From assembly GCA_947492995.1 (NCBI GenBank), contig CANLOU010000002.1, positions 620,001 to 684,000 on the forward strand: DNA of 64,000 nt, read 5' to 3'. Position 1 is the stretch's first letter; every line of letters begins with the position of its first letter. This document shows positions 30,951 to 33,439 of the stretch, one piece after another. The DNA is from an uncultured Litoreibacter sp. (GTDB lineage: Bacteria; Pseudomonadota; Alphaproteobacteria; Rhodobacterales; Rhodobacteraceae). The notes under the pieces are model-generated. The model made no database searches, was not told the origin of the DNA, and saw nothing but the letters and a program-made list of their open reading frames with translations. Position numbers and translations under genes: made by a program.

Positions 30951-31400
30951 ATGCGCGGACTAAAGAAGCAACGCCGTATTCAAATCATCGCCGTGGCGGT
31001 GGTCGCTCTGACCGTCGCCACCGTGGTCATTGGGATCGCGTTGAAGGACGGCATCAACTACTTCTACTCGCCCACGCAGGTCGCCGAGAACCCGCCCGCA
31101 GCCACCGAAACCTTCCGTATCGGCGGGCTGGTTTTGGAAGACAGCATTGTCGATGGGGAGGGATTCGCCTTCACCTTCACGGTCACAGACGGCAATGCCG
31201 AAATCCCCGTCTCCTATATCGGCAACCAGCCGCGCCCCGATTTGTTCGAGGAAGGCCAAGGCACAGTGGCCACCGGAAATTACGTGAACAACGTCTTCCA
31301 AGCCTCTACAATATTTGCAAAACACGATGAAACCTACATGCCGGTTGAGGTCATCGACGCGCTGAAGGCGCAAGGCGTCTACCAAGAGCCTGACGCATAA
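30951..31400 (+). CDS. ccmE: Cytochrome c maturation heme chaperone CcmE
   Basis: Periplasmic heme chaperone that carries heme from CcmC to the CcmFH ligation complex. The 149-residue protein has an N-terminal membrane anchor (residues 9-31), an OB-fold (FRIGGLVLEDS, VSYIGNQPRPDLFEEGQG) and the covalent heme-binding His125 in AKHDETYMP. The rest of the ccm operon is not in this window. The gene follows argC closely on the same strand. Confidence 0.95.
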   Translation: MRGLKKQRRIQIIAVAVVALTVATVVIGIALKDGINYFYSPTQVAENPPAATETFRIGGLVLEDSIVDGEGFAFTFTVTDGNAEIPVSYIGNQPRPDLFEEGQGTVATGNYVNNVFQASTIFAKHDETYMPVEVIDALKAQGVYQEPDA

Positions 31401-31453
31401 TCGGCAAAGCTCCGAACGCACCACTTTCCAACCGTTAACCATTTCAGCGCAGC

Positions 31454-31474
31454 TTCCCTCAAAACCGAAGGGAA
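31454..31474 (+). promoter_or_regulatory. Hairpin covering the endolysin ribosome binding site
   Basis: TTCCCT (31454-31459) is complementary to AGGGAA (31469-31474), the ribosome binding site of the endolysin gene that starts at 31482. The 6-bp stem with a nine-base loop could lower basal translation of a lytic gene. Thermodynamics were not computed. Confidence 0.35.
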
Positions 31475-31481
31475 ATGCGAT

Positions 31482-32093
31482 ATGCAAACGATCCAGGAAA
31501 TTACCGAAGAGATCCTCCGTTCCGAGGGCGGCTATGTGAACGACCCCGATGATCCGGGCGGGGCGACCAATCACGGCGTCACTATTCACACGATGCGCCG
31601 CCTTGGGCTGGACCTGAACAAGGACGGGAAGGTCACACCGGCAGACGTCAAAGCCCTAAGCCGGGTGCAAGCGGGCGACATCTTTATCGACCATTACTAC
31701 CGCAAACCACGCATCAACGCGTTGCCGGAGCCGCTGCAGGCCTCGGTCTTTGATATGTATGTCAACGCAGGCTCCAACGCGGTGAAAATCCTGCAAGGTC
31801 TGCTCAGCGACATGGGGTACGACATCAAAAAGGACGGCAAAATTGGCCCACAAACGGTGCGCACTTGTTTTGCTGCCTTTGAGGAGGCGCAGGATTACCT
31901 TGTTGATGCCTATGCCATCGCGCGCCGGGACTATTACTACGCAATTGGCGACCGCCGCCCAGCGTCTCGCAAATACGCGCGCCGCAGAAATGGTGGCAAA
32001 GGTGGCTGGATCACGCGGGCCGAGAAATTCATGTCGTCCGAATATCACTACACGATGACCGAACACCGCCAAAGGACTGCAAAATGGGCCTGA
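31482..32093 (+). CDS. Holin-associated N-acetylmuramidase (endolysin, glycosyl hydrolase 108)
   Basis: A peptidoglycan hydrolase of 203 residues. The N-terminal GH108 domain has the catalytic Glu in RSEGGYVNDPDDPGGATNHG (residues about 13-33), followed by the C-terminal PG_binding_3 domain (about 90-175) with DGKIGPQTV. No signal peptide is seen, which fits an endolysin that needs a holin to cross the membrane. Its last 10 bases overlap the holin gene. In Rhodobacter capsulatus such a pair, outside the main gene-transfer-agent cluster, releases GTA particles by lysis; the same role here is inferred from the family pair. Confidence 0.9.
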   Translation: MQTIQEITEEILRSEGGYVNDPDDPGGATNHGVTIHTMRRLGLDLNKDGKVTPADVKALSRVQAGDIFIDHYYRKPRINALPEPLQASVFDMYVNAGSNAVKILQGLLSDMGYDIKKDGKIGPQTVRTCFAAFEEAQDYLVDAYAIARRDYYYAIGDRRPASRKYARRRNGGKGGWITRAEKFMSSEYHYTMTEHRQRTAKWA

Positions 32094-32578
32094 TCCGAAC
32101 CATCCTTGGCGGCGGAGCACGCGACCTAACTCAAGCTGTGGGGCAAGTGGCCGACGGCTTCCGCCCAAACGCCACCCAAGCCATGCAAAACGGCCATGAC
32201 GCTTATATTGCGGCCCTCAACCAACACGGGACAGAGTTTCAATTTGGCCGCCAAGGCTGGTTCGACAGCCTGATGAACGGCTTCAACCGTCTGCCGCGCC
32301 CTATGCTGGCCCTTGGAACCATTGGTCTGTTCATCTTTGCGATGGTTGATCCCGCGGGCTTTGCGCCGCGCATGCAGGGTCTTGCTTTGGTGCCGGACCC
32401 GCTTTGGTGGCTTTTGGGCGCAATTGTCAGTTTCTACTTCGGAGCACGGGAACTGCACTACGCCCGTAGGCCGCGCGTGCGCGGCGCTGCCCCTGTCACT
32501 GAGGTCGCGGCTCCAAAGCGCAACCGGCCTACAACAAACGCAGCGCTTGAGGCGTGGCGCGCCACGCGCGGCGGCTAA
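32084..32578 (+). CDS. GTA-type three-helix holin family protein
   Basis: A 164-residue membrane protein with an amphipathic N-terminus (DLTQAVGQVADGFRPNATQA), hydrophobic segments around residues 72-92 and 103-123, and a basic C-terminal tail. The pattern is that of the Pfam family GTA_holin_3TM, named for its link with gene transfer agent release. It overlaps the endolysin by 10 bases (ATG at 32084), so the two are made together. No GTA capsid or tail genes are in the window. Confidence 0.85.
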   Translation: MGLIRTILGGGARDLTQAVGQVADGFRPNATQAMQNGHDAYIAALNQHGTEFQFGRQGWFDSLMNGFNRLPRPMLALGTIGLFIFAMVDPAGFAPRMQGLALVPDPLWWLLGAIVSFYFGARELHYARRPRVRGAAPVTEVAAPKRNRPTTNAALEAWRATRGG

Positions 32579-32662
32579 ATCGCACAAATGACGGGAGGTT
32601 CCTCTTTTCTAAACCGATTAGTTCGCTATCTTGTGACCTAACGGCAGAGAGAGGCCTCCCAC

Positions 32663-33439
32663 ATGCAATACGATACCCTCAAATATTCGGTCCGCAACAA
32701 CACCGCCATCATCGAGTTCTCGCGCCCCGACGTGATGAACGCTTTGAACACGCAGATGCGGGCCGAAATACTGCATGCGGTCAAAGCCGCGGAGAAAGAG
32801 GCGCGCGTCTTGGTCTTGACGGGCAAAGGCCGTGCGTTCTGCTCGGGCCAGGACCTCGGTGATCGCGCCACGGTCGCCAATATCGACTTGGAACGCACGT
32901 TGCGCGACGAATACGTCCCGATGTTGATGGCGATCTATGATTGCAAAATCCCAACCATTTCCGCCGTCAATGGCGCTGCCGCCGGGGCGGGGGCGAACCT
33001 TGCTTTGGCGGCTGATGTTGTTATCGCCAAGGAAAGTGCCGTGTTTTTGCAGGCCTTTTCCCGCATTGGGTTAATCCCCGATGCCGGTGGCACCTATTTT
33101 TTGCCCCGCCAAATCGGCCTCGCCAAAGCCATGGGCACGGCCCTTTTTGCAGAACCCGTGACCGCGCAGCAGGCCTCCGACTGGGGCATGATCTGGGAAG
33201 CCGTGCCCGACGATCAGTTTGAAACCGTCTGGAAAGACCGCGCCGCCCATCTGGCAGGCGGCCCAACAGCCGCCTACCAACGCGCCAAACAGGCGCTGAG
33301 AAAGACCTATGACAACACTCTTGAAAAGCAGCTGATGCTAGAGGCCAAGTTCCAAGGCGAGTTGGGCAAATCCCACGATTTCCGCGAGGGCGTGCTTGCC
33401 TTCCTCGACAAACGTGCGGCGGGGTTCGAGGGGCGCTAG
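32663..33439 (+). CDS. Enoyl-CoA hydratase/isomerase family protein (PaaG-like)
   Basis: A crotonase-fold enzyme of 258 residues. The oxyanion-hole segments are GKGRAFCSGQDL (about 54-65) and VNGAAAGAGANLALAAD (about 104-120). A catalytic acid is likely in IGLIPDAGGTYFLPR, the form found in PaaG (ring-opening 1,2-epoxyphenylacetyl-CoA isomerase) rather than in typical EchA. No other phenylacetate genes are near, so the pathway is open. The start follows GAGAGAGG. The gene ends in a terminator stem shared with the DUF2087 gene. Confidence 0.88.
   Translation: MQYDTLKYSVRNNTAIIEFSRPDVMNALNTQMRAEILHAVKAAEKEARVLVLTGKGRAFCSGQDLGDRATVANIDLERTLRDEYVPMLMAIYDCKIPTISAVNGAAAGAGANLALAADVVIAKESAVFLQAFSRIGLIPDAGGTYFLPRQIGLAKAMGTALFAEPVTAQQASDWGMIWEAVPDDQFETVWKDRAAHLAGGPTAAYQRAKQALRKTYDNTLEKQLMLEAKFQGELGKSHDFREGVLAFLDKRAAGFEGR

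Follow-up and report, generated by a model that had tools for sequence, protein, structure and literature searches.

Introduction

The genome of gene transfer agents (GTAs) is reportedly a multilocus one, as Hynes et al. are said to have described in 2016. Why bacteria keep genes that kill the producer cell is an open question about GTAs, and it has been modelled (PMC6209664). In Rhodobacter capsulatus, rcc00555 and rcc00556, a lysozyme/endolysin and a holin of RcGTA that lie outside of the head-tail cluster, are reported to be under the control of GafA and CtrA (PMC3423380, PMC6363796, PMC9638019). Disruption of rcc00555 reportedly lowered transfer and left intact particles trapped (PMC3423380), while the lysis promoter is described as bound by GafA, with CtrA being required for endolysin induction (PMC6363796). 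The endolysin expressed in E. coli is stated to cause lysis (PMC6209664, citing other work). Caulobacter is reported to be without holin-endolysin homologues (PMC9632790) and to lyse by LypABC (PMC13236601).

Here we analysed a window, i.e., the whole stretch of 64,000 nucleotides from an uncultured Litoreibacter sp., which contains a pair of lysis genes. The pair is similar to rcc00555/rcc00556 in being an endolysin and a holin outside of the head-tail cluster (they are likened by kind, not by alignment); the organism is a different one, and its regulation and lysis are inferred from R. capsulatus. LypABC of the Caulobacter crescentus GTA is like the pair in that cell bursting releases a related GTA, and unlike it in working without holin and endolysin and in being made of immunity-type domains (PMC13236601). 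As for phages, the catalytic domain of the GH108 endolysin of Sulfitobacter phage pCB2047-A is 38.6% identical over 62% of the window endolysin; GH108 endolysins of tailed phages are partial and distant relatives only, and no related holin was found in phage records at E ≤ 1e-3.

Results and Discussion

The Lysis Pair and Its Chromosomal Address

The features of the locus are the following:

30951..31400, + strand: ccmE, upstream neighbour of the pair, conserved in relatives
31435..31439, + strand: TTAAC, predicted CtrA half-site at -47 from the endolysin start
31448..31479, + strand: hairpin, predicted with modest support, whose 3' arm contains the Shine-Dalgarno region (GAAGGG)
31482..32093, + strand: endolysin, 203 aa, GH108 catalytic domain and PG_binding_3, phrog_315 endolysin
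32084..32093, + strand: overlap of the endolysin and holin genes, 10 bases
32084..32578, + strand: holin, 164 aa, GTA_holin_3TM, two clear hydrophobic segments
32663..33439, + strand: enoyl-CoA hydratase, downstream neighbour of the pair in the window

An earlier note on this DNA had proposed two open reading frames at 31482..32578 that overlap by 10 bases and belong to the GH108/PG_binding_3 endolysin and GTA_holin_3TM families. The overlap was confirmed at 32084-32093, and so were the families: the endolysin scored 92.7 bits with PF05838 (cut-off 21.2) and 75.5 bits with PF09374 (cut-off 24.6), and the holin 98.9 bits with PF11351 (cut-off 24.8), which is well above the curated cut-offs and far beyond chance. 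PF11351 and PF05838 each have a single match in the whole source genome, with no second copy of either family in the whole-genome profile search (E ≤ 0.001). A hydropathy scan gave no hydrophobic segment in the endolysin, which should therefore need the holin; in the latter, a simple scan gave clear hydrophobic segments at approx. residues 70-95 and 99-119, two as against three in the family name. The geometry of the two starts at the overlap is the same in 26 of 30 relatives, namely those whose holin match starts at residue 1.

Upstream of the pair lie argC and ccmE, with 81 bases from ccmE to the endolysin, and downstream the hydratase follows the holin after 84 bases. The position between ccmE and an enoyl-CoA hydratase gene without phage genes nearby, as previously proposed, holds for the neighbours scanned, i.e., no phage family was found among six other genes by Pfam and two other genes by PHROGs. 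The endolysin stands beside the holin in all 30 relatives (1.5 kb flanks), and ccmE is directly upstream in 26 of them, while one of the remaining four loci is truncated where its contig ends. Homologues found in prophages only, which the earlier note had named as an argument against itself, are thus not what is seen; the same address was present in 19 of 20 further loci with longer flanks. While the ccmE side of the placement is conserved, adjacency to the hydratase is not general, as the gap between holin and hydratase measures 2.5-3.4 kb in 15 of the 20 longer loci (the other five end before the hydratase). The sole gap scanned (L043) encodes CcmF and CcmH, and therefore the pair lies there inside the cytochrome c maturation operon. 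In the window, ccmF-ccmH are absent from the corresponding place (32579-32662), and the gap size in the 15 relatives fits these genes; G171, of the same genus as the source, resembles the window in having no such gap, and in G035 the gap is approx. 0.7 kb. In addition, at many loci of the Ruegeria-type genus (the genus of G043) a terminator-like GGGCGTTGC...GCAGCGCCCTTT is found between ccmE and the endolysin; of 98 intergenic ccmE-endolysin regions, 47 contain GGGCGTT and 41 contain GCGCCCT, suggesting insulation of the pair from ccmE in this genus.

GTA Cluster, gafA and the Promoter Region

Absence of a GTA cluster from the genome, the other argument that the earlier note had raised against its own reading, does not apply, since the search for the structural cluster and for gafA found both. 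GTA_TIM matched with 480 bits at C2:491328, in an open frame of 1337 residues, and the DUF6456 gene (DUF6456 is described as GafA; PMC9765227, PMC9638019) lies at C2:926505, on the same contig as the pair. The genes before gp15 (L004) are YceG, terminase, portal, prohead protease, capsid, connector, DUF2460, hub and NlpC/P60; gp15 itself carries GTA_TIM, Phage-tail_3 and Rcc01698_C, followed by a DUF2793 gene and serine acetyltransferase. The pair follows on the same contig approx. 158 kb after the end of this RcGTA-like head-tail cluster, so that it lies outside of the cluster in a genome having one.

Of 109 distinct loci (not independent, because about half of them come from one genus), 76 have TTAAC at most 100 bases before the endolysin, as against 0 of 98 before ccmE and 5.4 expected from single-base shuffled sequence. 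Its position is conserved as well, 53 of 79 occurrences being at -51 to -46 from the endolysin start (-47 in the window), and a double TTAAC/GTAAC-type site is present in only 2 of the 109 lysis promoters. In the source genome's own gafA region, GTTAAC stands 69 bases before the start, in agreement with the distance of 65-71 reported for gafA CtrA sites (PMC6363796); a search of this region for the full site TTAAC-N6-GTAAC, with up to one mismatch allowed, gave no match. Regarding the hairpin, the mean z was -1.64 upstream of the endolysin vs. -0.45 for ccmE, 0.06 for argC and 0.19 for the holin, and pairing of the Shine-Dalgarno region exceeded the control in 72 of 107 loci; this modest excess over controls is suggestive of a hairpin that may hide the ribosome-binding site upstream of the endolysin, in the window as well.

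In the source genome, CGAACG is found before the endolysin (31413-31422 region), before the GTA cluster (L004, before terminase) and before gafA (L087). Elsewhere it occurs in 10 of 32 GTA promoters (7.0 in shuffled sequence), and in lysis promoters in 14 of 60 outside of the Ruegeria-type genus (3.5 shuffled) and 0 of 49 inside it. As a candidate GafA operator shared by these promoters, it is weak in relatives, and we set it aside as a lead only.

Very probably, the pair is a lysis cassette of the rcc00555/rcc00556 kind that serves an RcGTA-type gene transfer agent and resides in the host chromosome. The earlier note had proposed a domesticated GTA-type lysis module, and what supports it is the cluster and gafA on the same contig, the single copies, the conservation of both the address and the CtrA half-site, the two families and their overlap, the GTTAAC before gafA, and the co-occurrence of holin and full TIM in the family (see below). 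Points against it are the two rather than three clear hydrophobic segments of the holin, the negative search for a full CtrA site at gafA, the rarity of double sites in lysis promoters, and the family genomes in which holin and full TIM do not go together. By analogy with R. capsulatus, GafA (by binding) and CtrA would switch the pair on in a small subset of cells, the holin would open the inner membrane at its time, the signal-less endolysin would reach the peptidoglycan and cut it, and the cell would burst, releasing the particles encoded approx. 158 kb away.

Occurrence of the Pair in the Family

In a survey of 198 family genomes from 197 genera, the holin was found in 165, a GTA_TIM match in 173 and a GafA match in 178, the genomes not listed individually being taken as the complement of those listed. 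In 14 of the 173, the match does not extend over the whole TIM domain, leaving 159 with full TIM; coverage was inspected in the 14 weakest genomes, and a few others of the 159 with a best E of 1e-72 to 1e-115 were counted as full. Full TIM and holin occur together in 142 genomes, TIM only in 17, holin only in 23 and neither in 16 (odds ratio 5.8, kinship ignored), while GafA and holin occur together in 162, GafA only in 16, holin only in 3 and neither in 17 (odds ratio 57, kinship ignored). Thus, the lysis pair tracks gafA more closely than the particle genes, with odds ratios uncorrected for kinship, and its link to the GTA is not strict, since 17 of the 159 full-TIM genomes are without a holin match and 23 of the other 39 have one. 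The label of GTA lysis, which is supported in the source genome, may be too narrow, as the pair is also retained in the absence of particle genes.

Within the 39 genomes without full TIM, 22 have GafA and holin, 3 GafA only, 1 holin only and 13 neither (odds ratio 95, kinship ignored). One explanation, to which we give a little less than an even chance, is that the pair is retained only because the loss of the particle genes is recent, so that it has no other job and will decay. It agrees with gafA being kept as well, as expected shortly after loss, and with the 13 genomes having neither, as expected of older losses, and it is the main rival to the idea that the pair may have a lysis role needing no particles. 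To hypothesize on the latter, GafA and the pair could form a programmed-lysis circuit that stands by itself, besides or instead of GTA release (e.g., giving DNA or nutrients to kin), which we regard as possible, with the balance leaning against it. The 22 genomes that keep gafA and holin favour such a circuit, and so does the closer tracking of gafA by the holin; against it, these statistics ignore kinship, the losses may be recent, and not all 39 genomes are true losses.

When the capsid of the source genome was used as a query in the 39 genomes, matches of at least 60% identity were found in three, G071 (72%, open), G114 (two pieces, with a stop) and G036 (115 residues, with a stop), matches of only 27-38% in G144, G070 and G092, and none in the other 33. 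The terminase as a query gave long relatives in G036, G114, G028, G071 and G115. Those of G123 and G076 are broken by stops, and that of G045 is split into two pieces; G030 has a short relative and G017 one at 43%. Ten more short relatives belong to the fused locus described below, while 19 of the 39 are without a terminase relative. G071 keeps capsid and terminase and therefore is no true loss of the GTA, and G028 (86% complete) is uncertain as one. In 22 of the 23 holin carriers the endolysin, 50-66% identical to that of the window, has no stop (that of G095 is truncated where the contig ends), even beside a broken capsid (G036, G114) or terminase (G123, G076), which argues for a role of the circuit without particles and against mere recency of loss. 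The exception is G104, which keeps gafA and a weak holin match with no endolysin match and thus speaks against a circuit of its own. When the three genomes with a capsid relative and G104 are omitted, 15 of the 19 remaining holin carriers are at least 95% complete.

A Fused Terminase-gp15 Locus in Relatives

In many relatives (L070-L081, L130-L196), the GTA locus is reduced to one in-frame fusion of the N-half of terminase (to Walker B) and the C-half of gp15. Of the 14 partial-TIM genomes, 12 share the junction at which the gp15 part starts; G115 and G176 differ, as the former (L082) has nearly the whole terminase before the C-part of gp15 and the latter (L083) a middle piece of gp15 alone. 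In 10 genomes, terminase up to Walker B (..RGPQFDxAWxDE) runs in frame into gp15 (xGCxAxDKG..), and the fused frame sits between yceG (not matched in G070) and the genes that come after gp15. The fused frame is open over 827-878 residues in eight genomes; that of G055 is broken (418), and that of G139 runs off its contig. The contigs of G032 (L077) and G158 (L080) end exactly at the junction, as if intact and fused forms were both in the sample.

A junction-spanning pattern, which detects this junction only, matched 67 stretches in GTDB genomes, from Ruegeria, Roseovarius, Sulfitobacter, Thioclava, Silicimonas and other genera and also from Chelativorans, Mesorhizobium and Phyllobacterium, with 0 matches in viral contigs. 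In the Ruegeria-type genus, all 10 partial matches start at TIM position 202-204, and all nine that were fetched have the pattern. Among 62 distinct fused sequences, a stop is present in the terminase stretch in 6 and an early stop in the gp15 stretch in 5, with both in two.

Fused and intact genomes are interleaved in the trees of both parts, as well as in those built from the flanks and from the lysis neighbourhood. With 62 fused and 27 intact sequences, the label changes 18 times on the tree of the terminase part, 20 on that of the gp15 part and 20 on that of both, while the means for shuffled labels are 23.3, 23.3 and 23.1, respectively, and the smallest shuffle (18) equals the terminase count. 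A single ancestral loss of the cluster behind the fused genomes is therefore unsupported, the labels being close to random on the trees; the losses may be many and young, which is in favour of recent loss as the reason why the pair is still there. The closest fused pairs have dN/dS of 0.03-0.14 in the terminase part and 0.05-0.39 in the gp15 part, and intact pairs 0.02-0.11 and 0.05-0.13; because of the higher fused values, the gp15 part is less constrained in some fused pairs.

In 15 intact loci compared, the two junction sites share just TGG, roughly GA[AG].TGG in register, and microhomology alone as the cause of the shared junction was rejected, since a match at the level of TGG was judged too little to single out one site. 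Candidate causes are repeated deletion at a single site, spread through recombination over very short tracts, and an old polymorphism. The shared junction would serve as a simple DNA marker for particle-gene loss.

Tentatively, and with the odds somewhat against us, we propose that the GafA-lysis circuit of Rhodobacteraceae stands by itself and outlasts the particle genes: the head-tail genes would be repeatedly shed, often via one in-frame junction of terminase N-part and gp15 C-part, with the circuit under purifying selection, and intact and fused loci could be a long-lived producer/non-producer polymorphism with the flanks recombined away up to the junction. No description of the terminase-gp15 fusion or of a GTA-independent role of the pair was found in the literature searched, which comprised titles and the starts of abstracts, with most subscription papers outside of reach.

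Apparent Constraint on the Pair Without Particle Genes

The Ruegeria-type genus comprises 54 species, 38 with full TIM, 10 with a partial match and 6 with none. The endolysin is present in all 54, including the 16 without full TIM, and in the 50 species in which the locus was read it has 203 residues in 49 and 206 in one; neither endolysin nor holin has a stop across these 50 loci, including those of all 16 species without full TIM, which again does not fit a pair in decay after recent loss. Pairwise dN/dS (Nei-Gojobori, the 18 closest pairs of each kind, where computable, G211 and G228 being left out due to the loci used lying away from ccmE) was 0.057-0.178 for the endolysin and 0.056-0.150 for the holin without full TIM, and 0.048-0.205 and 0.041-0.172 with full TIM, among the pairs listed, all of these values being rough because dS is often above 1. 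Rates without full TIM are thus as low as in carriers, and the pair seems to stay under constraint without particle genes, as judged from these substitution rates. In the clade of G230, G236 and G237, none of which has full TIM, the two pairs listed gave dN/dS of 0.13 and 0.06 for the endolysin and 0.06 and 0.06 for the holin, with dS of argC at 0.56 and 0.75, which is unfavourable to recent loss, although parallel losses in this clade are possible.

The CtrA half-site is kept in 12 of 16 distinct loci without full TIM, an additional point for a circuit that works without particles; by GTA state in the Ruegeria-type genus, it is present in 5 of 9 fused, 4 of 6 with none and 18 of 32 intact. 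The window pair itself is an ordinary, well supported RcGTA-type cassette, and what seems new is the tracking of gafA over particle genes and the apparent constraint in their absence, which together make a GTA-independent lysis role testable. If the circuit is indeed kept without particles, DNA transfer cannot be the sole benefit of producer lysis, and GTA-less species with an intact gafA-lysis circuit would be a natural experiment on this benefit.

Relatives in Phages and Viral Contigs

Distant relatives of the endolysin are present in 477 phage records (34-43% identity in the 20 listed), none of them covering 80% of the query. The entire pair, 52-62% identical, is present on four IMG/VR contigs (L267-L270), whose fetched 6 kb contain no ccmE, and therefore phage-like settings exist too. 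That the pair is the leftover lysis module of an unrelated prophage, for which the commonness of the endolysin family in phages and these four contigs could be cited, is nevertheless highly improbable, given the conserved address, the absence of phage families among the neighbours scanned and of a holin relative in phage records at E ≤ 1e-3. G211 and G228 carry second endolysins; together with the four viral contigs, they show that closely related copies of the pair, or of its endolysin, also exist at sites apart from ccmE.
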